DNA of 64,000 bases from Deltaproteobacteria bacterium (lineage in GTDB: Bacteria > Desulfobacterota > Desulfobulbia > Desulfobulbales > Desulfurivibrionaceae), in NCBI GenBank assembly GCA_021802645.1, contig JAJZRO010000009.1, positions 1 to 64,000 on the forward strand, written 5' to 3'. The notes beneath the pieces were generated by a model that made no database searches, was not told the origin of the DNA, and saw only the letters and a list, made by a program, of their open reading frames with translations. Both the position numbers and the translations under genes were made by a program. Below, in pieces: positions 2,970-64,000 of this stretch (position 1 is the stretch's first letter; every line of letters starts with the position of its first letter).

Positions 2970-3740
2970 TTATTCCCTGAGAAAATCGAGCCCGCCTTGG
3001 GGCGAAGAGGCCTCGGCCTCGGTACGCCGGGCGCCCAGGCCGGCCTCGTAGGCCTCGCGGCCGGCCTCCACTGCCTTGGCAAAGGCCTGCGCCATGCGCA
3101 CCGGATCACCGGCCACGGCGATGGCGGTGTTGACCAATACCGCGTCGGCCCCCATCTCCATGGCCTCGGCCGCGTGCGACGGCGCGCCGATCCCGGCATC
3201 GACCACCACCGGCACCCGCGCCTGCTCGATGATGATCGCCACCTGAAAGCGGGTAAGCACCCCCTGATTGGTGCCGATCGGCGACCCGAGCGGCATCACC
3301 GCCGCGGCCCCGGCATCCTGCAATCGCAGGGCCAGGATCGGGTCGGCATTCATGTAGGGCAACACCACAAAACCCGCCTTGACCAGTTCCTCGGTGGCAA
3401 TGAGGGTCTCCACCGGATCGGGCAGCAGGGTGCGCGGGTCCGGCGTCACTTCCAGCTTCACCCAGTTACCGCCGCCCGAGGCCTGGGCCAGCTTGGCCAG
3501 GCGTACCGCCTCGGCCGCATTACGGGCGCCGGCGGTATTGGGCAGAAAGAAAAAGTGGTCGCGGTCGAGCACCCTCATAATATCGTCCGCCGGGTTGGCG
3601 AGGTCGACCCGGCGCAGGGCCACGGTCACCATCTCGCTGCCGGAGGCGAGGAGCGCCTCCTGCATGACCTCGGGCGAGGAAAATTTGCCGGTACCGGTGA
3701 AGAGGCGCGACCGGAAGGTTTTGCCTGCAATGGTCAACAT
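2970..3740 (-). CDS. thiG: Thiazole synthase ThiG
   Basis: ThiG condenses deoxyxylulose 5-phosphate, 2-iminoacetate and the sulfur carried on ThiS thiocarboxylate into thiazole phosphate. At 256 residues it has the family length. The Schiff-base lysine is Lys95 in NWVKLEV. The phosphate-binding GSPIGTNQG and the [20 protein letters not shown] segment near the C-terminus are plain. The ATG shares one base with the thiS stop (TGATG), which implies coupled translation of carrier and synthase. Confidence 0.95.
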
Positions 3741-3943
3741 CAGCCGCCTCCCACAAAGCGGATCAATTCGAGGGTGGCCCCCTCGGTAAGCTTGGTCACG
3801 GCATAGTCCGGCCGACTGAGGATGCGGCCATCCAATTCAACCACCACGGTCTCCGGGTTGAGTCCCAAGGAGGCCAACAACTCCTCCACGCTCATCTCCC
3901 GCTCAAGCCGCCGCGACTCGCCGTTGCAGAGAATGGTGATCAT
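3740..3943 (-). CDS. thiS: Sulfur carrier protein ThiS
   Basis: This 67-residue ubiquitin-like carrier ends in Gly-Gly-Gly. The terminal glycine is adenylated by ThiF and then thiocarboxylated to deliver sulfur to ThiG. The [13 protein letters not shown] and [10 protein letters not shown] segments follow the beta-grasp pattern. Most ThiS proteins end in two glycines, so the third is a minor variation. The start codon overlaps the thiF stop by four bases (ATGA). Confidence 0.92.
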
Positions 3944-4746
3944 GCGTCCTCGTCCACCCCAAGCAGCAGGCGGATCACCTGATTGGCCTGATGGTGGGCG
4001 GCGATCCCCACCCGGGAAGCCATGAGTCCTTGCCCCGGCTGCGCTGCGGATTCGCCATCGCCGACGAGATAGACCCGGGCCCGGAGTCGTTGGGTGCGGA
4101 TGGCGTTATTATCGCCATAGCCTGCCACCCCGGAGGAACCGACATAGCCGACACGGGGCAGTTCACGTAGGGCGACCCGCAGGGCCGCCGCCTTCATCCC
4201 CGGGTCGTCGAAGCATTCGGCCAGCACATCCACCCCCGCAAAACAGGCGGGGATATCCGCTTCGGTCAGCCGCCGATCGATGCATTCCACCGCCACATAG
4301 GGGTTAATCCGGGCCAGGGTGGCTCGCAGCGCTGCGGTCTTGGGCTGGCCGAGCTGATCGATGAAATAGTGCTGCCGATTGAGGTTGGAGGGCTCCACCA
4401 CATCGTAGTCCGCCAGCCGCAAGTGGCCGACTCCCATGCGAGCCAGGGCTACGGCCAGGGGAGAACCAAGCCCCCCGAGCCCCATGATCCCCACGGTCGC
4501 CTGCTGGAGCACCGCCTGCACTCCCGGGGTGTGGCGGGCATAAAGCAGATGGGCCAGCTCGGCGGCCGAAGGCACTTCGCCGCGTTGGATCAGCCAACAG
4601 CGGTCGCCATCGGCCAGCAGGGTTGTTGGCGGCGCCGGGAAGCCATTGACAATAACCACATCGGCCCCGGGCTTCACGCGCGACACCACGTCGGCAACCC
4701 GCATCCCCGGTTCGTAGGGGAGCGACAGGTCATTCACGGAGATCAA
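3940..4746 (-). CDS. thiF: ThiS adenylyltransferase ThiF with an N-terminal ThiS-like domain
   Basis: The E1-like enzyme activates the C-terminus of ThiS with ATP. Residues ~1-60 (ISVNDLSLPYEP to GDRCWLIQRGE) look like a ThiS/MoaD beta-grasp domain. The Rossmann part begins at GIMGLGGLGSPLAVALARMG and contains the NLNRQ segment that follows the ATP site. The paired CxxC zinc ligands and the catalytic cysteine region of E. coli ThiF are not present, placing it with the shorter ThiF family 2. I chose the TTG at 4746 (268 residues) because AAGGAGGG lies six bases upstream; the frame also opens at a TTG at 4767 that would put this site inside the gene. First gene of the thi group. Confidence 0.88.
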   Translation of the reverse strand: MISVNDLSLPYEPGMRVADVVSRVKPGADVVIVNGFPAPPTTLLADGDRCWLIQRGEVPSAAELAHLLYARHTPGVQAVLQQATVGIMGLGGLGSPLAVALARMGVGHLRLADYDVVEPSNLNRQHYFIDQLGQPKTAALRATLARINPYVAVECIDRRLTEADIPACFAGVDVLAECFDDPGMKAAALRVALRELPRVGYVGSSGVAGYGDNNAIRTQRLRARVYLVGDGESAAQPGQGLMASRVGIAAHHQANQVIRLLLGVDEDA

Positions 4747-50917: not shown

Positions 50918-52084
50918 TTAACTCTCGTTCTTGCGCAGAAAGGTCGGCCGGTCAAAGTCATCCTCGTTGAGGATGGCGCTCGGCATCCGGCGCTGGCAGC
51001 CAGCCGCCACGCCGCCGTTGGCCGCCACCGCCTCCCGCCCTTTGAAGGGCAGATTCTGGGCCTTGACCTCGCGTTTGGGGATGAGCATCGGCCGCACCTT
51101 TTCGGTCGCCTCCTCCAGTCCCTCCACGGTGCGGATGCCGGTCGCGATCACGGTCACCCGCAGCTCCTCGCCCAGGTTGTCGTCGAAGATGACGCCGAGG
51201 ATGATGTTGGCGTCCTCGTGGACCTCTTCGTAAATCTTGGTGGTTGCCTGGGTTACCTCGGCCATGGTCAGGGTGTCCTGGCGGGCCGAGATATTCACCA
51301 GCACGCCGCGGGCGCCGTCGATGCTGATGTCCTGGAGTAAGGGGCTGGCAATGGCCATGGTCACCGCCTCCACCGCCCGGTTGTCGCCCACGCCCTGACC
51401 GGCACCCATGAGGGCCGGCCCCATCTCGTTCATGACGGTGCGGACGTCGGCAAAGTCGGGGTTGATGTAACCGGGGAGGTTGATGAGGTCGGTAATGCCC
51501 TTGACCGCCTGGACCAGCACGTCGTCGGCCATCTTCATGCCGTCGATGAAGCGGGTGCCCTTCTGGGCGAGCGAGATGAGACGATCGTTCGGGATGGTGA
51601 TGATGGTGTCCACATGCTCGCTCAATTCCTTCCAGCCCGCCTCGGCGTTCTTCATCCGGGTGCGGCCCTCGAAGGCAAAGGGCTTGGTGACGACACCCAC
51701 GGTGAGCGCCCCCAGCTCCTTGGCCACCCGCGCCACCACCGGGGCAGCGCCGGTACCGGTGCCGCCGCCCATGCCGGCGGTGACAAAGACCATGTCGCTG
51801 TCTTGCAACAGCTTCTTGATCTCCTCGATGGATTCCTCCGCCGCCGCCCGACCCACGTCGGGATTGGCGCCAGCACCGAGTCCCTTCGACACTACCGGCC
51901 CGAGCTGCAGCCGGATATCGGCCTTGGATTGCTCCAGGGCCTGCATGTCGGTGTTACCGGCGATGAACTCCACGCCGAGGAGATTGCTCTCCACCATGGT
52001 GTTGACCGCGTTGCCGCCGCCGCCACCGACCCCGAACACCTTGATCTTTGCCCGCGATTGTGATTCTGCCAGTTTGAACGACAT
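50918..52084 (-). CDS. ftsZ: Cell division GTPase FtsZ
   Basis: FtsZ polymerises into the division ring. The tubulin signature GMGGGTGTGAAPVV and the T7 loop PGYINPDFADVRTVM for GTP hydrolysis are intact in the 388-residue protein. The conserved C-terminal peptide is present as FDRPTFLRKNES, the docking site for FtsA and other partners. A variable linker precedes it. It ends the dcw cluster proper. Confidence 0.97.
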   Translation of the reverse strand: MSFKLAESQSRAKIKVFGVGGGGGNAVNTMVESNLLGVEFIAGNTDMQALEQSKADIRLQLGPVVSKGLGAGANPDVGRAAAEESIEEIKKLLQDSDMVFVTAGMGGGTGTGAAPVVARVAKELGALTVGVVTKPFAFEGRTRMKNAEAGWKELSEHVDTIITIPNDRLISLAQKGTRFIDGMKMADDVLVQAVKGITDLINLPGYINPDFADVRTVMNEMGPALMGAGQGVGDNRAVEAVTMAIASPLLQDISIDGARGVLVNISARQDTLTMAEVTQATTKIYEEVHEDANIILGVIFDDNLGEELRVTVIATGIRTVEGLEEATEKVRPMLIPKREVKAQNLPFKGREAVAANGGVAAGCQRRMPSAILNEDDFDRPTFLRKNES

Positions 52085-52158: not shown

Positions 52159-53391
52159 CTAAATCATGTTTTTAAACCAGTCCTTCATACGGCCGGCCAC
52201 CCGGCCGACGACGCCACTGCCCTTGCTTCTGAGTCCCATCGTTGGTTCGTGCCGCATGCCGTAAATCACCAACCCCACCCCGGTGGCCCATTGCGGCGAG
52301 TTGACCACATCCGCCACCCCGCCAATGTTCTCGGGATAGCCGACCCGCACCGGCAGGTCGAAAATCTGCTCGGCCAGATCCTCCATGTTGGCCAGCAGCG
52401 AGGTGCCGCCGGTCAAGACCATGCCGGAGTTGGCCACCTCCTTGAAACGGGATTCCACCAGTTCCTGGTTGACGAGGGTCAGCATCTCCTCGACCCGCGG
52501 TTCCAGGATCTCGCCCATCACCCGACGCGAAAGCTTGCGCGACTTGCGGCCGCCCACACTCGGCACCTCGATGATCTGGTCCTTGTCGATCATCGAGGCG
52601 AGCGCGCAACCGTATTCCTCCTTGAGCCGCTCCGCCTCCTTCACCGGGGTGCGCAGTCCGACCGACAGATCGTTGGTCAGGTTGTGGCCGCCCAACCCCA
52701 GCACAAAGGTGTGCTTGATGGTGCCGCCGGAAAAGACCGCCAGGTCCGAGGTGCCGCCGCCGATGTCGAGCAACCCCACGCCCAGTTCCATCTCCTCCCT
52801 GGTCAGCACCGCCTCGGCCGAGGCCAGCGGTTCGAGCACCACATCGGCAACCTCGAGGCCGGCGCGATTGCAGCACTTGATGATGTTGTGCACCGCGGTG
52901 ACCGAACCGGTGACGATGTGCACGTCCGCCTCCAACCGCACCCCGGTCATGCCGATGGGGTCCTGGATGTCGGGCTGGCCGTCCACCATGAACTCCTGCG
53001 GCAGCACATGGATGATCTCCTGATCCGGCGGGATCGGCACCGCCCGCGCGGCATCCACCACCCGCTCGATGTCGTCCTGGCGGATCTCCGGGTGCTTGAT
53101 GGCGATGAGGCCATGGCTGTTGAAGCCCTTGATGTGGCTGCCGGCGATGCCGACATAGACCGTGCCGATCTCGCAGCCAGCCATGCGTTCCGCCTCCTCC
53201 ACCGCCTGGCGGATGGACTCCACCGTGCTTTCGATGTTCACCACCACCCCACGCCGCAGCCCCACCGAAGGATGCCGGCCGATGCCGATGACATCGACCC
53301 GGCCCTCATGAATCTCGCCCACCACCGCGCAGATCTTGGTGGTACCGATATCGAGACCGACAATCAATTCGCCCCGTTCACCGCTTGCCAT
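52159..53391 (-). CDS. ftsA: Cell division protein FtsA
   Basis: FtsA is the actin-like protein that tethers FtsZ to the membrane. The 410 residues include VGLDIGTTKICAVVGEI, the SHIKGFNSHGLIAIK 1C-domain segment, and GGGTSDLAVFSGG in the ATP site. The C-terminal RMKDWFKNMI is an amphipathic helix for membrane binding. It lies between ftsQ and ftsZ. Confidence 0.96.
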   Translation of the reverse strand: MASGERGELIVGLDIGTTKICAVVGEIHEGRVDVIGIGRHPSVGLRRGVVVNIESTVESIRQAVEEAERMAGCEIGTVYVGIAGSHIKGFNSHGLIAIKHPEIRQDDIERVVDAARAVPIPPDQEIIHVLPQEFMVDGQPDIQDPIGMTGVRLEADVHIVTGSVTAVHNIIKCCNRAGLEVADVVLEPLASAEAVLTREEMELGVGLLDIGGGTSDLAVFSGGTIKHTFVLGLGGHNLTNDLSVGLRTPVKEAERLKEEYGCALASMIDKDQIIEVPSVGGRKSRKLSRRVMGEILEPRVEEMLTLVNQELVESRFKEVANSGMVLTGGTSLLANMEDLAEQIFDLPVRVGYPENIGGVADVVNSPQWATGVGLVIYGMRHEPTMGLRSKGSGVVGRVAGRMKDWFKNMI

Positions 53392-53416: not shown

Positions 53417-54238
53417 TTACACTGCGTGCGTCAAGCCGACCAGCACCTTATCCGGCAGGTAGTCCATGCGGATATAGGCGGTGGCGGCAAACTCGTTTTC
53501 CTTGTACAGCCGACCCAATACCCGGGCCAGCCGGCTATACTTGGTCGCCATCTCGCCCTTGCCCAGAAAGATAGGGAAAGGCCGGTCCACCAGGAAGAGG
53601 ACCAACGACCCGGTCGGCTCCAGGTGGATCTCCGAAATGCTCTGGCCCGGCAGCATGGTATTGCCAAGGCCGGCCAGCCGAATGAATTGCAGCGCCTCGC
53701 CCAGCGGCGTGCCTTTGCCTCCCTGCGGTGACGGTTCGCGACTGAACCCCGTAATCACCGGATAATCCATATCCTCGGGGGGCAGCACCTTGGCAAAGGC
53801 CACCCCGTTCCGGTCGAGATAAAAGAGGCCCTCTTTGAGGCTGGTCAATGCCACCGGCACCCGTTCCCGGATGGTGATCTGCAGCCGGTTGGGCCAGCTG
53901 CGATCGACCTCGGCCGCCTCGACCCACTCCAGACTCTCGATCCGGCTCTTCACCTCGTCCAGGTCCAGGGCGAGCAGGTTGGTATGAACATCCACCCCGC
54001 TCTGTTCCAGTACCTGATTCTTGGTCACCCGCTGCCCGCCCTGGATGCGGATCGCGGTCACCTGGAAGAACTCCGAGCGTTCCAGCGCCTTGAACATGAG
54101 AAAACTGCCGACCCCAATGGCGGCCAGCACCAGGCAGAAGCCGAGGCCGAGGATGATCAGCTTGTGACGCAGTCCCATCCCCGCCGAATTCTTCGGCGAC
54201 TGCCCGAGGCGTTGCTTGACCGGTTTCTTCTTACCCAC
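53417..54238 (-). CDS. ftsQ: Cell division protein FtsQ
   Basis: FtsQ links the cytoplasmic ring to FtsL/FtsB in the divisome. The 273-residue protein has a basic N-terminus, one membrane helix at ~26-48, then a POTRA domain (FQVTAIRIQGGQRVTKNQVL) and the beta domain with SLEWVEAAEVDRSWPNRLQI. The start is GTG at 54238, with GGAG seven bases upstream, overlapping the murB end by eight bases. Confidence 0.93.
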   Translation of the reverse strand: MGKKKPVKQRLGQSPKNSAGMGLRHKLIILGLGFCLVLAAIGVGSFLMFKALERSEFFQVTAIRIQGGQRVTKNQVLEQSGVDVHTNLLALDLDEVKSRIESLEWVEAAEVDRSWPNRLQITIRERVPVALTSLKEGLFYLDRNGVAFAKVLPPEDMDYPVITGFSREPSPQGGKGTPLGEALQFIRLAGLGNTMLPGQSISEIHLEPTGSLVLFLVDRPFPIFLGKGEMATKYSRLARVLGRLYKENEFAATAYIRMDYLPDKVLVGLTHAV

Positions 54239-55258: not shown

Positions 55259-56650
55259 TTACGCGGCCGCATCCTGGCGTTCCAGTTCCACCAGCAACTC
55301 TTCGCCGACCCGGTAGATACTGCCGGCCCCCAGGGTCAACACCACGTCGCCGCGCTTCAACAGCGGCTGCACCGCCGTCGCCATCCCTCCCAAGGTCGGC
55401 ACATACTCGACAAACTTCTGGCCATGCTGCTTGATCCCGTCCCGGAGCGACTCGGCCGTCACCCCTTCGATGGGCGCCTCGCTGGCGGCGTAGATCTCGG
55501 TGAGCAGCAAGAGGTCCGCATCGTGGAAGGCGGTGCAGAACTCCTTGAACAACCCGGCGGTCCGGGTGTAACGATGCGGCTGGAAAAGCACCACCAACCG
55601 GCGCTTGGGCCAGGCGCTCCGCAGGGCGGCCAAGGTGGCGCGAATCTCGGTGGGGTGATGGCCGTAGTCGTCCATCACCGTGATGCCGTGCGACTCGCCC
55701 TTCACCTGCAACCGCCGCTGCACGCCGGTGAAGCTGCCCAGCGCCCTGCTGATGGTGGCGAAAGGTATTTCCAATTCCAAGCCCAGGGCAATGGCGGCCA
55801 AGGCGTTGTAAACGTTGTGCTGGCCCGGCACCAGCAGCGAGACCTTGCCGAGCAGGATGCCATGTTGCCACACCTCGAAGCGGTTGATGAAACCCTGGCC
55901 CTTGACGTCACGAGCCTGAATGTCCGCCTGACTGGTGAAGCCGTAGGTCAGGGTGCGTTTCTTGATCTCCGGCAGCAGCGAGGCGACGTGTGGGTCGTCG
56001 AGGCAGAGGATGGCGGCGCCGTAAAAAGGAATCTTGTTGATGAACTCGAGGAAGGCGGCCTTCACCGCCTCGATGTCGGCGTAATGGTCCACATGCTCGA
56101 AGTCGATGTTGGTGACGATCTCCAGCACCGGCGACAGTTTGATGAAGGAGCCGTCCGACTCGTCCGCCTCGGCCACCAGAAAATCCCCGGCCCCCAACTT
56201 GGCGTTGGTGCCCAGGCTGTTGACCTTGCCGCCGATCACCACCGTCGGGTCGAGCCCGGCCTCGGCCAGCAGCCAGCCCACCATCGAGGTGGTGGTGGTC
56301 TTGCCGTGGCTGCCCGCCACCGCGATGCCATAGGCCTGGAGCCGCATGAGCTCGGCCAGCATCTCGGCGCGTGGGATGATCGGCACGTGGGCCTCACGGG
56401 CCGCGAGTACCTCGGGGTTGTCGCGCTTCACCGCCGAGGAGGTGACCACCACGTCGGCGCCCTCGACCCAGGCGGCATCATGGCCGAGATGGATGGTGCC
56501 GCCCAGGCCGGCAAGGCGCCGGGTGATCTCCGACTCGCGCAGGTCCGAACCGCTGACCCGGTAGCCCAGGTTGAGGAGCAGCTCGGCGATGCCGCTCATG
56601 CCGATGCCGCCGATGCCGACGAAGTGGATGCGCTGGTTCTTGCGGTACAT
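55259..56650 (-). CDS. murC: UDP-N-acetylmuramate--L-alanine ligase MurC
   Basis: MurC adds the first amino acid of the stem peptide. The 463-residue protein begins [20 protein letters not shown], the UDP-binding loop, and contains [20 protein letters not shown] for ATP and [16 protein letters not shown] in the C-terminal domain. The ATG at 56650 fits the family; 46 more open codons upstream belong to murG in another frame. Confidence 0.96.
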
Positions 56651-56669
56651 GTTCCGTTGGTTCCTTCGT

Positions 56670-57746
56670 TCAGGCGCCTGCCAGCGCCAGACATTCGTTG
56701 ATGATGGTCTCGGTGGCCGCCGGTCGGCCCAGTTCCTTGGCCCGCGCCGCCATCTCCTGCCGACGCGCCTCCTTGGCCAGCAAATCACCCAGCAGGACGG
56801 CGAGTTTCGTGCTGTCCAGGTTGATCTCGTCCGCCATCAGGGCCGCCCCGTGATCCACGAGATAGCGGGCATTATGGCGCTGGTGGTCGTCCGCCGCGTA
56901 GGGGTACGGGATCAGCAGAGACGGCCGGCCGAAGACCGTGATCTCGGCAAGCGTCGTGGCCCCGGCCCGCGACACGATCAGGTCCGCCTCGGCATAGACC
57001 GTTGCCATGTCGCTGATAAACGGCTCCACCCGGGCGGCCACGGCCGCCGCATTATACCCTGCCTGCACCCATTCGGCATCATGGATACCGGTCTGATGGA
57101 TGATAGTGAGGCGGTTTTTTTCACTGAGCTGCTCCACTGCCGCCACCATCAATCGGTTCACTGCCCGGGCGCCTTGGCTGCCGCCGAGCACCAGCACGGT
57201 GAGCCGCTCATGCGGTGCGGCTCCCGTCGCTGCCCGCGCCAGCAATTCCCGGCGCACCGGGTTGCCGGTGAGCCGCACCTTGCCGGCCGGGAAATACCGC
57301 TCGCTGCCGGGCAGCGAGACAAAAACCCGATCGACAATCCGTCCCAACAGCCGGTTGGCCAAGCCGGGAATGGAATTCTGCTCGTGGATCGCGGTCCGGA
57401 CGCCCAAAAGCCGCGCCGCCAGCAGGACCGGCCCGGTGACGTAGCCGCCGACCCCGAACACCAGATCGGGCTTGAATTGCCGCAGCAGTTGCATGGCCCG
57501 CCAGACGCTGACCGGGACCTGCAAGAGGGCGCCGAACTGCCGCAGCAGGGTTTTCCCCTTGAGCGCCCGGCTGGCCAGCGCCACCACCGCAAACGGCTTC
57601 TTGGCCAAAGCCTGGTTGTCGAGATGCCGATCGGTCCCGATGAACATCACCTTGCCCTGCGGAAAACGTTGCAGCATCCCTTCGGCCAGGGCAATCCCCG
57701 GAAAGAGATGGCCGCCGGTGCCGCCGCCTGTGATCACCAATCGCAT
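56670..57746 (-). CDS. murG: Lipid II synthase MurG
   Basis: MurG transfers GlcNAc onto lipid I at the inner face of the membrane, making lipid II. The 358-residue glycosyltransferase starts [20 protein letters not shown] and has the second glycine loop [12 protein letters not shown] and donor-site [15 protein letters not shown] four codons earlier (57758) is an alternative start; the ATG has GGTG nine bases upstream. Confidence 0.95.
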
Positions 57747-57773
57747 ACGGTGCCGCACCTAGTTGACTGCCGT

Positions 57774-57950
57774 TTATTCCACCAGGCGGATACCCTGCTC
57801 CAGCCGGTCGAGCTGGAACCGCGCCATGGTCGCCTGATAACAGGTAGGACAATAGCCATGGGACAACCGCTCTTCATCCTTCGCCTGCCGCCTCTTGATC
57901 CACCCCTTCCCGCTCTTGGTCCTGTGGCACACGCAGCACACCGTGGTCAT
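57774..57950 (-). CDS. Small CxxC/CxxC zinc-ribbon-like protein in the ftsW position
   Basis: A 58-residue frame begins MTTVCCVCHRTKSGKGWIKR and later reads LSHGYCPTCYQATMARFQ. Cys5-x2-Cys8 and Cys34-x2-Cys37 would bind one zinc. The SHGxCPxC pattern recalls short zinc-binding segments found after some response-regulator domains in deltaproteobacteria, but I do not know a function. The start has GGGGGAAGG just upstream. It fills most of the 234-base gap between murD and murG, where ftsW is usually found. Coding status is inferred from motif conservation, not shown. Confidence 0.65.
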   Translation of the reverse strand: MTTVCCVCHRTKSGKGWIKRRQAKDEERLSHGYCPTCYQATMARFQLDRLEQGIRLVE

Positions 57951-57980
57951 GATCCTTCCCCCTCATGCTCGCATGACATC

Positions 57981-59465
57981 TCAGGCAACCAGTGCCTCCA
58001 CGATCGGGCATGGGCTGCCGCCCCCCCGCACTTGCCGTGGCGTGGAACGAAGCGCCTGCACCGCCTCCCGGAACACCTCGCCCCGGTGGCCGTAATTCTC
58101 GAACATATCGAAGCTGGCGCAGGCCGGCGACAAAAGCACCACGTCGCCCTGGCGCGCCAGATCCCTCGCCTTGTCGACCGCCTCGGCCATGCTCTCGGCG
58201 AAGACGATCGGGATCAGATCCTCGAAGGCCGCCGCCATCAGCTGGCGCGCGCTGCCGATGAGCACCATGGCCTTGACCTTCTGTTGCACGATATCGCGCA
58301 TGATGCGGTAATCGCCCCCCTTGTCGAGACCGCCGGCAATGAGCACCACCGGCTGCCGCATCCCTTCGAGGGCCGAAACCACGGCGCCGATGTTGGTGGC
58401 CTTGGAGTCGTCGTAGTAGCCGACCCCCGCTACTTCGGCCACCAAGGCCAGACGGTGCGGCAACGGCTTGAAGGCAGCCAGCCCCCGTTGCACCGCCTTG
58501 GGAGAACAACCGCAGCAACGGGCCGCGATGATGGCAGTCATCGCGTTATGGCTGTTGGGGGCCATGGCCAAGGGCGTACCGGCCAGCTCATATTCTTCCA
58601 CCGCCGCGCCGGGGACCACCTCTCGAATCGCCGCCACCGTCCCGTTGAGGCTGGCGCCGATCCCGACGGTCCGCTCGCCCACGATAGCGCGCCGGCTGCG
58701 AATCGCAAAGGGCGAGGCCGGATCAGTGGCGGCCTCGGCCAACAACCGGGCAATCTCCGGGTCGTCGCCATCGAGGATCGCGGTATCCTCGGACTGCTGG
58801 TGACGGAAGATCGACCATTTCGACGCGGCATAGGCACCATAGGAGGGATAGCGATCAAGATGGTCCGGAGTGATATTCAGGAGAATCGCCACCCGCGGCC
58901 GGAAATTGCCGGCGGTATCGAGCTGGAAGCTCGACACCTCCAGCACCACCCACTCCGCCTCCTGGGGGCCGGCAAGATACTCGCAAAGCGGGGTGCCGAG
59001 GTTACCGCCGACAAAGACCTTCTTGCCCGCAGCCGCCAGCAGGTCGCCCACCAGGGTGGTGACGGTGCTCTTGCCGTTGGTGCCGGTGATCGCCACCACC
59101 GGCGCCTTGAGGAAGTCCTGGGCCAGGGCCAGCTCGCCGAAAACCGGAATCCCCTTGGCCCGCGCCGCCGCCAGGGCCGGCAGCGTGAGCGGCACCCCCG
59201 GGCTGAGCAGGATGGCATTCACCTTGCTGAACAGTTCAGAGGAGTGGCCGCCGATCTCGCAGTAGACTCCTTTCTCCTGGAGCCACTGAATCTTCTCCGC
59301 GTCCAACTGCGGCGCGCGGCCACCCTCTGAAACCGAAACCCGCATCCCCTGGGCGAGCAAGAATCGCACTGCCGCATAGCCGGATTTGCCGAGGCCGACC
59401 ACCAGGACATGATCGCCCTGTTGCAGGATCGGCGTCGGCAGTATGGGGCTGGTAGCGTTGTGCAT
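57981..59465 (-). CDS. murD: UDP-N-acetylmuramoyl-L-alanine--D-glutamate ligase MurD
   Basis: MurD adds D-glutamate. The 494-residue protein has the N-terminal GLGKSGYAAVRFLLAQG loop, the ATP site TGTNGKSTVTTLVGDLLA, NITPDHLDRY and the C-terminal DDSKATNIGAVVSALEG and LLSPACASFDMFENYGHRG. It is longer than the ~450 residues common in the family because of a C-terminal tail of ~15 residues and small insertions. It follows mraY by five bases. Confidence 0.95.
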   Translation of the reverse strand: MHNATSPILPTPILQQGDHVLVVGLGKSGYAAVRFLLAQGMRVSVSEGGRAPQLDAEKIQWLQEKGVYCEIGGHSSELFSKVNAILLSPGVPLTLPALAAARAKGIPVFGELALAQDFLKAPVVAITGTNGKSTVTTLVGDLLAAAGKKVFVGGNLGTPLCEYLAGPQEAEWVVLEVSSFQLDTAGNFRPRVAILLNITPDHLDRYPSYGAYAASKWSIFRHQQSEDTAILDGDDPEIARLLAEAATDPASPFAIRSRRAIVGERTVGIGASLNGTVAAIREVVPGAAVEEYELAGTPLAMAPNSHNAMTAIIAARCCGCSPKAVQRGLAAFKPLPHRLALVAEVAGVGYYDDSKATNIGAVVSALEGMRQPVVLIAGGLDKGGDYRIMRDIVQQKVKAMVLIGSARQLMAAAFEDLIPIVFAESMAEAVDKARDLARQGDVVLLSPACASFDMFENYGHRGEVFREAVQALRSTPRQVRGGGSPCPIVEALVA

Positions 59466-59470
59466 ACGTT

Positions 59471-60547
59471 TTACCGCAGCTTCAAGGTAGCGATGGCCAT
59501 GAGGCCGAGCACGATGGAGACGATCCAGAAGCGGACCACCACCTTGGGCTCGGGCCAGCCTTTCTTTTCGAAATGATGATGGAACGGCGCCATCAGGAAG
59601 ATCCGCTTGCCGCCGGAGAGCTTGTAGTAGCCGACCTGCAGCATGACCGACAGCGCCTCCATGACAAAGATGCCGCCCACCAGGGCGAGCAGGAACTCCT
59701 GCTTGATGATGATGGCCACCAACCCCAGGGCGGCGCCCAGGGCCAGGGCGCCGACATCGCCCATGAAGACCCGGGCCGGATAGCAGTTGAACCAGAGGAA
59801 ACCGAGACTGGCGCCCACCAGGGTGGCGCAGAAGACGGCCACCTCGCCGGCGCCGGGGACAAAGGGCAGTTGCAGATAGGCGGAAAGCACGGCATGGCCG
59901 GCAAGATAGGAAAAAAGCAGATAGACGGTGCCGGTCACCACGGTGGGGCCGGCCACCAGGCCATCGAGGCCGTCGGTGAGATTGACCGCGTTGGAGGCGC
60001 CGACCACCACCAGCATGGCGAAGATCACATAGTACCAGCCGAGGTCAGGCCGGGCGGCTTTGAAGAAGGGCAGACTCAGATGGCCGTCGAAACCGGGCAG
60101 CTGGTAGAGAACCAGCCCGGCCAGGCCCGCGCCCAGGAACTGGGAAATGAGCTTGCCCCGGGCCGAGAGTCCCCGGCTGTCCTTCTTCTTGATCTTGCGG
60201 TAGTCGTCGTAGGCACCGATCATGCCGAACCAGATCGTTACCAGGAGCAGCAACCAGACATAGGGATTGATGAGATCGACCCACAGCAGGGTCGCCACGG
60301 TGATCGCGCTCAAAATGAGGATGCCGCCCATGGTCGGCACCCCCCGCTTACTGAAGTGGGTCTCCGGGCCGTCGTCCCGCACCACTTGGCCGATGAGGTT
60401 CCGTTGCAGCATGCGAATGAAGGCTGGACCGGCGAGCAGCATGATAAGAAAGGCGGTGAGCGCCGCGCCGATACAGCGGAAGGTGATGTAGCGGAAAACA
60501 TTCAGGACGCTGAGATAGGAATGGAGCAGATAAAGCTGATAGAGCAT
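59471..60547 (-). CDS. mraY: Phospho-N-acetylmuramoyl-pentapeptide transferase MraY
   Basis: MraY moves phospho-MurNAc-pentapeptide to undecaprenyl phosphate, forming lipid I. The 358-residue membrane protein has about ten helices and the catalytic aspartate segments GAYDDYRKIKKK and NAVNLTDGLDGL. The metal-binding MAPFHHHFEKKGWPE motif is near the C-terminus. It starts four bases after murF. Confidence 0.97.
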   Translation of the reverse strand: MLYQLYLLHSYLSVLNVFRYITFRCIGAALTAFLIMLLAGPAFIRMLQRNLIGQVVRDDGPETHFSKRGVPTMGGILILSAITVATLLWVDLINPYVWLLLLVTIWFGMIGAYDDYRKIKKKDSRGLSARGKLISQFLGAGLAGLVLYQLPGFDGHLSLPFFKAARPDLGWYYVIFAMLVVVGASNAVNLTDGLDGLVAGPTVVTGTVYLLFSYLAGHAVLSAYLQLPFVPGAGEVAVFCATLVGASLGFLWFNCYPARVFMGDVGALALGAALGLVAIIIKQEFLLALVGGIFVMEALSVMLQVGYYKLSGGKRIFLMAPFHHHFEKKGWPEPKVVVRFWIVSIVLGLMAIATLKLR

Positions 60548-60551
60548 CGGC

Positions 60552-62048
60552 TTACCTCGTCTCCGTTGCCGTCAGTGCATTGGCGATGGTTTCCATCCGC
60601 ATCCCTCGTGATCCCTTGAGCAGGAGGATGTCGCCAGCTTGAAGCGTCCGTTCCTTGACCGCCTGGTCGAGCCAGGCGACAATGGCCTCCTTGTCGGCGA
60701 ACCGCTGCGCCTGCCTGCCGGTCATCCCGGCCTTGCGGGCACCAGCCACCAACTCGCCGGCAAATGTACCCACCGCCAGCAGGTAATCGAATTTGAGCCG
60801 GGCCACATGCTCGCCTACCAGCCGATGCGCCGCCACACTGTGGCTCCCAAGCTCCAGCATGTCGCCCAGCACCGCGACGATGCGCTGCCGGGTCTTGAGA
60901 TTGCGCACCGCCTCCAAGGCCGCCAGCATCGAGGAAGGATTGGCGTTGTAGGTGTCGTTGACGAGCTTGAGGCCGCTCGGCAGCACGCTGATCTGCATGC
61001 GCTTGTCGTAGGGGCGATGGCGGCTTAGCCCCGCCACGATCTCGGCCGGCGGGAGTCCCACCGCATGCGCCATCGCCGCGGCGGCCAGCGCATTCATGAC
61101 GTTGTGGGCACCGAGGCTGACGATGGTCAACCGGCCACGCCAGTCGCCAATATGCAGGGTAAAACGCATCCCCTCCTCACCCAGGCTCACGATGCGGGTA
61201 GCCCGCACGGTGGCCATGGCGCTGCGGCCGAAAGTGATCTTGCGATGCCGTAACCGGCGGGCCAACTTGCGTATCCGCACGTCGTCGACATTCACCACCA
61301 GCGTGCCCCACGCCTTCATGCCGACGAAAAGTTCGCCCTTGGCCCTTGCCACCCCCTCGATGGTCGACAGCCCGGCCAGGTGCGCCCCTTGGACATTGGT
61401 GATGCAAGCGACATCCGGTTCGGCGATCTCGGCCAGGCGGGCGATCTCGCCCGGCCGATTCATCCCCATCTCCAGCACCGCGAAGGCATGCTCCTCGTTT
61501 ACCGGCAACAGCGATTGGGGCAGGCCGATGAGGTTGTTCAGATTGCCCTTGGTCTTGAGCACGCTGTGGTGCTGGGCCAGAATGGCGCTGGTCATCTCCT
61601 TGACCGTGGTTTTGCCGGAACTGCCGGTCACCGCCAGCACCGTGAGATTGGGCATCTGCCGGCGCCGATAGTGGGCCAGATCGCCCAAGGCCTGCAGGGT
61701 GTCGTTCACCAGGATGACGGCGACAGCGCAGGGTCTGGCCGGCATCCTGGCCAGTACCAACCCGGCGGCCCCCCGTGCCAGGGCCTGCTCGATGAAGTCG
61801 TGGCCGTCAAACTTCTCGCCGATGAGGGCGACAAAGAGGTCCCCCGGCTCGACGGTACGGCTGTCGGTGGAAACCCGCTGAAAGGTCGCCCCGGTCGGAC
61901 GGCCAAGGAGACGGCCGCCGGTGGCAAAGAGCACCTGGGCCAGGGTCCAAACCGGCTGTCGCCATCCACTCCCCACGCGGCTGTTCTCCTGCTGCCGCTT
62001 CTGATGCGGCGCCTTATCTCGCGCCTCGCTTCGTGCCATACTCTCCAT
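60552..62048 (-). CDS. murF: UDP-MurNAc-tripeptide--D-Ala-D-Ala ligase MurF
   Basis: MurF adds D-Ala-D-Ala. The 498 residues contain the ATP site TGSSGKTTVKEMTSAIL, EMGMNRPGEIARLAEIAEPD and NDTYNANPSSMLAALE. A basic, poorly conserved ~30-residue N-terminal stretch precedes the family start, so the true start may be slightly downstream. It lies 32 bases after murE. Confidence 0.95.
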   Translation of the reverse strand: MESMARSEARDKAPHQKRQQENSRVGSGWRQPVWTLAQVLFATGGRLLGRPTGATFQRVSTDSRTVEPGDLFVALIGEKFDGHDFIEQALARGAAGLVLARMPARPCAVAVILVNDTLQALGDLAHYRRRQMPNLTVLAVTGSSGKTTVKEMTSAILAQHHSVLKTKGNLNNLIGLPQSLLPVNEEHAFAVLEMGMNRPGEIARLAEIAEPDVACITNVQGAHLAGLSTIEGVARAKGELFVGMKAWGTLVVNVDDVRIRKLARRLRHRKITFGRSAMATVRATRIVSLGEEGMRFTLHIGDWRGRLTIVSLGAHNVMNALAAAAMAHAVGLPPAEIVAGLSRHRPYDKRMQISVLPSGLKLVNDTYNANPSSMLAALEAVRNLKTRQRIVAVLGDMLELGSHSVAAHRLVGEHVARLKFDYLLAVGTFAGELVAGARKAGMTGRQAQRFADKEAIVAWLDQAVKERTLQAGDILLLKGSRGMRMETIANALTATETR

Positions 62049-62080: not shown

Positions 62081-63661
62081 CTACCAGCGGATCATCGCCA
62101 GCATCTCCCGCGCCACCAGGCGGTCATCGAAAAAGAGCCTGGTCTTGCCGATAAGCTGGTAGTCCTCATGCCCCTTGCCGCAGATCGCCACGATATCGCC
62201 CGGGTTGGCATGCCAGATTGCCTCCCGGATCGCCGCCTTGCGGCCGGGGATTACCTCGTATCCCTGCCTGGCCGGCTGGGAGTGCAGCATAGCCAGCGGC
62301 AACCGCGCCATCCCCGTGGCGCGGAGCCCCTCTTCGATGGCGGCGATGATTGCCCCAGGTCCCTCGCTGCGCGGATTGTCGGAGGTGATCACCGCCACAT
62401 CGGCGAGTCGTCCGGCAATGGCGCCCATCTGCGGCCGTTTGCCCTGGTCGCGGTCCCCACCGCAACCAAAGACCACGATCAACCGCCCCCTGCTGAGCCG
62501 CCGCAGGGTGTGCAGGATGTTTTCCAAGGCATCCGGCGTGTGGGCATAATCCACGAACACCTCGATGCCGGTGGCGGATGCCACCCGCTCCAGCCGACCC
62601 GGCGCCCCCGACGCCTCGTTCAAGCCCGCGGCAATCACTGCCGGCGCATAGCCAAGGGCACTGCCGACCGCCGCCACCCCCAGCAGGTTGCGGATATTGA
62701 ACTCGCCGACCAGCGGCGAATGAATCTCCATGGTGCCGCCCGCCACCGCCACCTCGAGGGTGAGGCCGGTCAGCTCCTCGCGGGCGGCGGTGAGCGCCAC
62801 CTCGCCCTGGCCGACGGCGCAACGAAGAAGCGTGGGCGCCTTTTCCCCCTTGCGGCCGGCCAGTTCGGCCAACAACCGGCCAGCCCACGGATCGCCGACA
62901 ATGGCATCGACCACCACGCCGATCCCGCCAGGCTTCAGGTACTCCCGAAAGAGCCGCTTCTTGCTGGCGAAGTAGGACTCCATATCGCCATGGAAGTCGA
63001 GATGGTCGCGGCTCAGGTTGGTAAAGAGCGCCACGTCGAAGGTGATCCCCGCCACCCGCTTCTGCTCCAGGGCATGGGAGGAAACCTCCATGATGACGTG
63101 GGTCACCCCGCTGTCGGCCATCTCCCGCAGCAGGCGCTGCAAGATCTCGGGCGGCGGGGTGGTATGGGCGGCCGGCAGCACCTTGCCGCCATAGCGGTAG
63201 TTGACGGTGCCGATCACCCCCGGCTCGCCGCCGGCCTTGCGGATCATGGTCTCCAGCAGATAGGCGCTGGTGGTTTTGCCGTTGGTGCCGGTGATGCCGA
63301 TCATGGTCATGCGGCGCGCCGGCTCCTGCCAGAAGGCGGCGGCAATAAGCCCCAACGCCTCCCGGCTGTCCGCCACCTCGATGCAGACCGGCAGCGTTTT
63401 TGCCTTCGGCCCGCGACGGCGCCCCTTTTCCAGCACCACCCCGGTGCAGCCCCGGCGCACCGCATCGTCGATAAAATCATGACCATCCACCGCGGTGCCG
63501 GCCACCGCGACAAAAAGCGTGCCTGCTTTCACCGCCCGGGAATCGGAGGTGACCGCAGTGATCGGCAGTCCGGCTATCGCTTGCGTGGCACGGTACGACA
63601 CGTTCTTCAGCAGCTCCTGTAAGGGAATACCCTCTGTTTCGTTTCGTGGTCCATTCGTCAT
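62081..63661 (-). CDS. murE: UDP-MurNAc-L-Ala-D-Glu--meso-diaminopimelate ligase MurE
   Basis: MurE adds the third residue of the stem peptide. The DNPR motif in TSDNPRSE indicates meso-diaminopimelate rather than lysine as substrate, in keeping with a Gram-negative wall. The ATP site GITGTNGKTTSAYLLE and VDYAHTPDALENIL are present in the 526 residues. It starts eight bases after the ftsI stop. Confidence 0.96.
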   Translation of the reverse strand: MTNGPRNETEGIPLQELLKNVSYRATQAIAGLPITAVTSDSRAVKAGTLFVAVAGTAVDGHDFIDDAVRRGCTGVVLEKGRRRGPKAKTLPVCIEVADSREALGLIAAAFWQEPARRMTMIGITGTNGKTTSAYLLETMIRKAGGEPGVIGTVNYRYGGKVLPAAHTTPPPEILQRLLREMADSGVTHVIMEVSSHALEQKRVAGITFDVALFTNLSRDHLDFHGDMESYFASKKRLFREYLKPGGIGVVVDAIVGDPWAGRLLAELAGRKGEKAPTLLRCAVGQGEVALTAAREELTGLTLEVAVAGGTMEIHSPLVGEFNIRNLLGVAAVGSALGYAPAVIAAGLNEASGAPGRLERVASATGIEVFVDYAHTPDALENILHTLRRLSRGRLIVVFGCGGDRDQGKRPQMGAIAGRLADVAVITSDNPRSEGPGAIIAAIEEGLRATGMARLPLAMLHSQPARQGYEVIPGRKAAIREAIWHANPGDIVAICGKGHEDYQLIGKTRLFFDDRLVAREMLAMIRW

Positions 63662-63669
63662 CCCGCTGC

Positions 63670-64000
63670 CTATTGCATCTGCCCCGCGCGCAACTCCAAC
63701 ATCCCCTGGTCAAGACCCTTGAGAGGGGTCGCGGGGGCCGGCTGCTGCCCCACCACCTGGCCGCTGCCCACCACCTTGAAACGCAAACCGGCCTGTTGCA
63801 ACACCTGGAGCGCCTTGCGCAGACTGAGGCCCTTCACATCCGGCATGGCCCCACCGGTGGAGGTCATGGCGGCCATCGGCTGATACGCCGGCTCCCGATG
63901 CAGCGCCAACCACTTCTTGTAATCAGCGGCCTCCTGGGCGGCCAGGGTGGACCATGCCGGCAGGGTGGTCTTTTCCGCTGCGTAATGGAGCGCCTGGCCG
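63670..64000 (-). CDS. ftsI: FtsI-type penicillin-binding protein, C-terminal end with a PASTA domain (5' end outside window)
   Basis: The frame is open to the window edge and shows ~109 residues. The last ~60 (AMPDVKGLSLRKALQVLQQA to MLELRAGQMQ) form one PASTA domain, which can bind peptidoglycan or beta-lactams. The preceding residues are the end of the transpeptidase domain region. FtsI before murE is the standard dcw order, and PASTA tails on this protein are known in deltaproteobacteria. No catalytic motif is visible in this part, so the assignment rests on the tail and on synteny. Confidence 0.82.
   Translation of the reverse strand, partial: GQALHYAAEKTTLPAWSTLAAQEAADYKKWLALHREPAYQPMAAMTSTGGAMPDVKGLSLRKALQVLQQAGLRFKVVGSGQVVGQQPAPATPLKGLDQGMLELRAGQMQ

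Follow-up and report, generated by a model that had tools for sequence, protein, structure and literature searches.

Sequence evidence for the loss of FtsW and of the FtsI active site in Desulfobulbia

The dcw cluster and the murD-murG interval

The window analyzed here is a stretch of 64,000 nucleotides from a member of the Desulfurivibrionaceae, class Desulfobulbia (assembly GCA_021802645.1, contig JAJZRO010000009.1). Its minus strand encodes murE, murF, mraY, murD, a 58-amino acid frame, murG, murC, ftsQ, ftsA, and ftsZ. The murF (60552..62048), mraY (59471..60547), and murC (55259..56788) genes were recognized by both Pfam and phmmer, and murE (62081..63661), ftsA (52159..53391), and ftsZ (50918..52084) by phmmer. 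MurD (57981..59465) has the Pfam Mur ligase domains and a phmmer match to E. coli MurD. MurG (56670..57758) has Glyco_transf_28 and Glyco_tran_28_C domains and a phmmer match to E. coli MurG. The ftsQ gene (53417..54238) was matched to E. coli FtsQ by phmmer (E 4.9e-7), and recognition of FtsQ is weak in the regions read, at 19-26 bits. At the edge of the window is the 3' end of the dcw ftsI gene (63670..64000), again on the minus strand. The gene runs off the window; read as a whole, it has PBP_dimer and PASTA matches and is predicted to encode a catalytically dead protein.

FtsZ, FtsA, FtsQ, an FtsL-like gene, and the elongation genes are retained in the regions read. The FtsL-like frame is short, lies between rsmH and ftsI (L252, about 3700-4000, minus strand), and combines a single membrane-like segment with a charged region. 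The available parts of a division-gene inventory list ftsL as absent from many Desulfobulbaceae (PMC7873302). Approximately 5 kb past ftsI on the window's contig, a transpeptidase match (G000:C23:71094-71813, plus strand) is found in a 790-amino acid frame, the size of a class A PBP.

In most bacteria, ftsW is located between murD and murG. Here, the end of murD is at 57981, and murG has two candidate starts, a GTG at 57758 and the ATG of MRLVITGGG at 57746. The murD-murG interval (57759..57980, minus strand) is 222 bases long with the GTG start; the 234 bases of the original prediction correspond to the ATG start. No SEDS gene is present in this gap, and ftsW is indeed missing from its usual place.

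What the interval does contain is a frame (57774..57950, minus strand) encoding a stand-alone, probably zinc-binding protein of 58 residues with two CxxC pairs, C5xxC8 and C34xxC37, and an SHGYCPTC context. This frame is real, and both homologues in relatives and selection on the protein were found. Of the 79 readable murD-murG gaps in the source's order, 38 carry a homologue in the corresponding position (36 by motif, G086 and G094 by profile). An alignment of 30 members shows no variation at C5, C6, C8, G32, C34, P35, and C37, and in 617 of 630 pairs of the family pN is lower than pS, in keeping with purifying selection. The homologues, the invariant cysteines, and the pN and pS values rule out a random frame. 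One gap of 637 bases (L213, genome G082) carries two small CxxC/CxxC frames in tandem.

Translated family members are 54-74 amino acids long and stand alone. The model of the 58-residue protein (pLDDT 83) consists of short strands and, at residues 35-57, a single helix. Comparisons with the PDB gave a best Foldseek E of 1.4, a best VIA Z of 2.1, and a best sequence profile E of 0.21, none of them significant. Pfam returned a sub-cut-off match to L34 only, NCBIfam returned sub-cut-off matches only, and PHROGs returned nothing below E 0.008. There was no plasmid match, and the literal motif strings had no matches in open-access papers.

The family occurs in one to several copies per genome, and three of its settings are stable: the murD-murG interval, the neighborhood of dnaA, and that of an AIR-synthase-related gene, which we take to be thiL-like. 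In the source genome, a second paralogue lies directly after dnaA (L293:7700-8035, minus strand, G000:C9). The dnaA-side paralogue is also found in L294, L029, and L020; the genomes with this setting are the source, its genus neighbor G001, and two others. The third setting mostly includes an ECF sigma factor (L296, L295, L297, L009, L012, L013, L025, and others), and in L295-L297 the small family is also near a 290-amino acid Transgly gene.

Some match to the family is present in at least 117 of the 246 genomes of a phylum sample. Among the matches listed, all seven above 60 bits are in Desulfobulbia genomes, and those outside the class reach at most 43 bits and are mostly in long frames, with a few of 70-106 amino acids. 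Cysteine-rich, zinc-type tails of the form CxxC...SHGxCPxC occur on signaling proteins in this phylum. The small protein has the same motif pattern, and differs in standing alone at 54-74 amino acids. The predicted likeness to zinc-type segments in other members of the phylum is weakly supported by profile matches of about 28-43 bits in other orders, which lie mostly inside longer frames.

A cell wall role for the small protein had also been suggested and is unsupported. The protein was not found at 41 of the 79 FtsW-less loci, the gap of G005 included, and is therefore not tied to FtsW loss and is no FtsW substitute. Its place between murD and murG and its conservation would fit a cell wall or division factor that replaces FtsW, but its paralogues adjoin dnaA and the AIR-synthase-related gene, and its modeled fold, a few strands and one helix with two CxxC pairs, is not that of a membrane polymerase. 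We regard such a replacement as very improbable. The 58-residue protein probably has a regulatory or accessory function.

SEDS genes in Desulfobulbia and their relatives

The source genome is 99.4% complete and in 38 contigs. The search of the whole genome for SEDS genes returned one PF01098 match (G000:C11:25091-26122), on another contig than the window. Its neighbors are mrdA, mreC, and mreB, which identifies it as RodA. The protein scored 291.2 bits against the ftsW model, below the FtsW cut-off of 337.5 bits, a strict threshold that 3 of 10 controls pass. In the SEDS tree described below, it lies on the RodA side. The original prediction had allowed that ftsW has moved; this is refuted by the finding that the sole SEDS gene is RodA beside PBP2. 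By gene content, ftsW is not relocated but gone from the source genome.

This state is common to the class. Exactly one SEDS match was found in 101 of 105 Desulfobulbia genomes with a completeness of at least 95%. Four genomes depart from this: no match was obtained in G062, G036 has two adjacent pieces, G099 has a 43-amino acid fragment in addition to its one match, and G119 has two matches. Both matches in G119, a genome with 8% contamination, are below the FtsW cut-off. In G062, which is 99% complete, five candidates were scored without yielding a SEDS match. G036 is a single-contig genome in which rodA is in two adjacent pieces (G036:C1:137697-138757), through a frameshift or sequencing error. 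A wider search of relatives found a SEDS match in 94 of 97 genomes, with none in G015, G025, and G062, and pieces in G036, G066, and G093.

The 31 Desulfobulbia SEDS loci that were read (the source and the 30 best of the relatives search) have E. coli MrdB as their best match, and all are beside mrdA. In a SEDS tree of 76 rows, 25 dcw-encoded FtsW proteins fall on one side, and 50 single SEDS proteins and E. coli RodA fall on the other, with a support of 100/99. This tree took 14 hand-picked loci of other groups, and ten dcw SEDS genes best matched by MrdB were left out. E. coli RodA is the only RodA from an FtsW-bearing genome, and the tree therefore cannot count FtsW losses. The converse reading, that RodA was lost instead of FtsW, is rejected by the gene neighbors and by the tree.

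In none of the 79 readable genomes of the source's order does the interval between murD and murG exceed 637 bases, which is too short for ftsW (80 loci were taken, and that of G054 is cut by a contig end). At loci of other groups that have a SEDS gene in this gap, the gap is 1.06-1.44 kb; the gap-borne genes are best matched by FtsW in most cases and by MrdB in ten. Four comparison loci of other groups (L092, L093, L096, and L097) have murD and no gap of 1.06-1.44 kb. At L096 and L097, both from Thermodesulfobacteriota MAGs, murD abuts murG and no SEDS gene was recognized between them.

An artefact, in which ftsW is missing from the source genome through an assembly error or a local deletion, would be in line with the division of that genome into 38 contigs. 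However, a single SEDS gene and no ftsW are also found in single-contig genomes, G005 of the same family among them, and in the 101 Desulfobulbia genomes above. The chance of an artefact is next to nil.

FtsW loss extends beyond the class. Among 233 genomes of the phylum outside Desulfobulbia, 48 have one SEDS gene by table count, and the rest have two or three. The strict cut-off of the ftsW model is passed by 7 of these 48 and failed by 41. G313, G317, and G349 have no murG over the model cut-off, so that the dcw region seems to be missing from their assemblies, and they were removed; G313 and G349 have an FtsI with full-length PBP_dimer matches. The FtsW-less set outside Desulfobulbia is thus composed of 38 genomes in 13 families. 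The 19 single SEDS loci that were read outside Desulfobulbia, two of them from the dropped genomes, are all RodA beside mrdA. In G341, whose family otherwise has one SEDS gene, two matches were found, and both fall short of the FtsW cut-off.

The FtsI active site

The whole ftsI gene of the source genome (G000:C23:63670-65688; L252:1674-3689 plus stop) is located between rsmH and murE. These three genes are adjacent in 38 of 40 further regions, as well as in L252, L254, and L300-L303. The remaining two regions, L378 and L379, are too short for ftsI because of contig ends.

The source FtsI was matched by PBP_dimer and PASTA and not by Transpeptidase at E 0.001. In the alignment, its SxxK position reads GLRS (PGGLRS, where relatives have PGSTFK), and neither SxN nor KTG was found in the protein. 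Across the aligned proteins, SxxK is intact in 0/47 Desulfobulbia FtsI proteins, whereas SxxK, SxN, and KTG are all intact in the FtsI of 15/15 relatives with FtsW or two SEDS genes, a comparison that does not amount to 62 independent cases because FtsW loss and FtsI death are perhaps few events each. The 15 relatives (7 with FtsW over the model cut-off, 8 counted as FtsW-bearing solely through their two SEDS genes, which were not typed singly) are those whose ftsI place was located and are not a random draw. The comparison suggests that the dcw protein of Desulfobulbia is derived from FtsI and is not an FtsI enzyme. A loose, ordered S..K/S.N/K[STA]G pattern occurs in two Desulfobulbia FtsI proteins, away from the aligned active site.

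The loss of motifs is specific to FtsI, since PBP2 keeps SxxK and KTG in 31/31 Desulfobulbia loci, with SxD matched in 30. In 20 Desulfobulbia genomes searched with PF00905, each has one strong class B match, PBP2, at 212-240 bits. Where the dcw FtsI is among the matches listed, its single stretches score 19-34 bits, and their combined score does not exceed 53. Exactly two PBP_dimer proteins are present in each of the nine Desulfobulbia genomes searched.

The domains of the protein are still recognizable. In Desulfobulbia FtsI, PBP_dimer is matched in 38/38, PASTA in 37/38, and the Transpeptidase model in 28/38, which indicates that the catalytic domain has decayed and was not deleted. PASTA is present in 8 of 10 scanned relatives with an intact FtsI. 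The stop-to-stop frames of Desulfobulbia FtsI are 610-787 amino acids long. The closest solved relative of the FtsI profile is P. aeruginosa FtsI (E 5.2e-68). The model of the source protein (pLDDT 82) has a helix at residues 7-37 as membrane anchor and an FtsI fold when compared with 8bh1_B (Z 33.7, rmsd 5.0 over 413 residues).

For the dead FtsI, the pair from the source genus gives a dN/dS of 0.17, and four further pairs give 0.14-0.20. The mean pairwise identity of Desulfobulbia FtsI is 0.37 in the pedestal and 0.30 and 0.20 in the two transpeptidase halves. In the FtsI of the 15 relatives, it is 0.37 in the pedestal and 0.48 and 0.43 in the transpeptidase halves, which are the best kept parts. 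The protein predicted to be dead is kept under purifying selection, but not as an enzyme.

In the FtsW-less genomes outside Desulfobulbia, SxxK is present in 0/10 FtsI proteins or remnants, with three weak matches of 24-43 bits. The PBP_dimer match ends at about profile position 124-161 in FtsW-less genomes versus about 173-178, and a short match is also seen in G152, G305, and G326, which bear FtsW or two SEDS genes. Several families outside the class have only a frame of 340-453 amino acids at the ftsI place, and the pedestal is recognizable in L320, L325, L335, and L336. The presumed FtsI remnant shrinks from about 640 to about 340 residues outside Desulfobulbia as the transpeptidase domain vanishes.

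At L320, L325, L326, L328-L330, L334, L336, and L338, all from FtsW-less families outside Desulfobulbia, a frame of 248-440 amino acids lies between rsmH and murE, with the pedestal in three. The frames of the other six (L326, L328, L329, L330, L334, and L338) were not recognized as FtsI remnants.

As read from sequence, both catalytic halves of the septal synthase FtsW-FtsI are gone in Desulfobulbia. That FtsW is lost and FtsI is dead in this lineage is, on the SEDS counts and the aligned motifs, nearly certain. A search of the open-access literature, with most subscription papers outside it, returned no report of a catalytically dead FtsI or of a class-wide state in Desulfobulbia.

Candidates for septal synthesis and known systems

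Desulfobulbia are Gram-negative and non-sporulating. Among the enzymes that could build their septum are the Transgly proteins, which are class A PBPs or monofunctional enzymes. At least one is present in all 246 genomes of the phylum sample, with 2-6 in each of its 13 Desulfobulbia genomes. Moreover, PF00905 matches besides PBP2 are found in each of the 20 Desulfobulbia genomes; the frames that hold them range from about 200 to 1150 amino acids. Transgly genes are not raised in the 38 FtsW-less genomes outside Desulfobulbia (1-4 each, mean about 1.7), and an expansion of Transgly genes as a signal of compensation is absent there. RodA and PBP2 are as widely kept as the Transgly proteins, so that retention does not choose between the two models considered below.

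In the first, a class A PBP brought to the FtsZ ring would both polymerize and cross-link the septal glycan strands. The dead FtsI, with FtsQ and FtsL, would serve as a non-catalytic recruiter or activator, like C. difficile PBP3. The precedent comes from C. difficile, which in the portions of PMC10693644 available is described as having no vegetative FtsW-FtsI pair; its class A PBP1 makes the septum and RodA-PBP2 elongates the cell. C. difficile PBP3, a class B enzyme, promotes septum synthesis independently of its own activity and forms complexes with PBP1, according to parts of a second study (PMC12539705). In E. coli, PBP1b, FtsW, and PBP3 are reported to co-purify (PMC5324115, in part). 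By analogy with these systems, a class A PBP could well be the main septal polymerase, and we hold this with roughly even confidence. It is favored over RodA-PBP2 because of the C. difficile PBP1/PBP3 precedent and the E. coli PBP1b co-purification. We lean towards a more general statement, that in Desulfobulbia and about ten other families of the phylum the septum is built, after the loss of FtsW, by a non-canonical synthase that the dead FtsI scaffolds or activates allosterically.

In the second, RodA-PBP2 would work both with the MreB filaments and at the FtsZ ring; its recruitment or activation at the septum would fall to the dead FtsI together with FtsQ and FtsL. No SEDS-bPBP pair other than RodA and the intact PBP2 was found, and FtsQ and the FtsL-like gene, whose counterparts control the SEDS-bPBP pair in E. 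coli, are kept. However, RodA lies within the mreB-mreC-mrdA-mrdB cluster in all four regions read, an elongation setting. We consider sharing of RodA-PBP2 somewhat less likely than the class A PBP model. The idea in the original prediction that another SEDS protein does the job of FtsW survives to this extent: it could do so as RodA, and this is not the sole option.

The searches covered known families only, which leaves room for an unrecognized polymerase, neither SEDS nor class A, that took over septal synthesis. RodA and the Transgly proteins of all 246 genomes suffice, with no sign of an extra polymerase, and this explanation is improbable.

Septal wall synthesis has been presented as universally dependent on FtsW-FtsI, and C. 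difficile is the exception that has been worked out (parts of PMC10693644 and PMC12539705). The class Desulfobulbia, which includes the cable bacteria and Desulfobulbus (PMC7873302, in part), appears to be a larger, natural exception that keeps FtsZ and the shell of FtsI and has no FtsW and no FtsI active site in the genomes examined. It offers a natural experiment in which the structural role of FtsI is separated from its catalysis. Genes annotated as ftsI in Desulfobulbia genomes probably encode no enzyme, and FtsI-directed beta-lactams would be predicted to reach these bacteria via other PBPs. FtsW/FtsI-independent division and the absence of FtsW from four Desulfobulbaceae were known before; the putative natural pseudoenzyme FtsI and the class-wide state are new.

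The P. aeruginosa FtsI/PBP3 of FtsWIQBL (8bh1) has its gene order, membrane anchor, pedestal, and transpeptidase-like fold in common with Desulfobulbia FtsI. In contrast to P. aeruginosa FtsI, the Desulfobulbia protein is without SxxK, SxN, and KTG, and its partner FtsW is absent.

For the class itself, the inventory of cable bacteria and Desulfobulbus by Geerlings et al. (2021) has already reported, in the parts available, that ftsW, zipA, and ftsN are absent in four Desulfobulbaceae genomes (PMC7873302). FtsI is listed there as recruited, and its activity is described as what synthesizes the septum in the E. coli model, whereas the active site appears lost here. What is added here to the available parts of that inventory is the loss of the active site, its reach across class and phylum, and the presence of a single SEDS gene.

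The closest functional parallel is C. difficile division by PBP1/PBP3. As in Desulfobulbia, the available text of PMC10693644 and PMC12539705 describes no functional FtsW-FtsI pair for vegetative division. Both have RodA-PBP2 beside mre genes (PMC10693644, in part). At least one class A PBP is present in C. difficile, in the same partial sources; in Desulfobulbia, this is read from Transgly genes, which include monofunctional enzymes. A class B PBP that acts without catalysis is shown in C. difficile (PMC12539705, in part) and proposed for Desulfobulbia. Unlike Desulfobulbia, C. difficile keeps SpoVE/SpoVD in the dcw cluster for sporulation, going by the parts of these papers available. Its PBP3 also has an SxxK motif, described in those parts as mutated for the test, whereas the dcw class B PBP of Desulfobulbia would be a natural pseudoenzyme. 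Finally, compared with C. difficile, the loss of FtsW and of FtsI activity in Desulfobulbia appears to span a class of Gram-negative bacteria.
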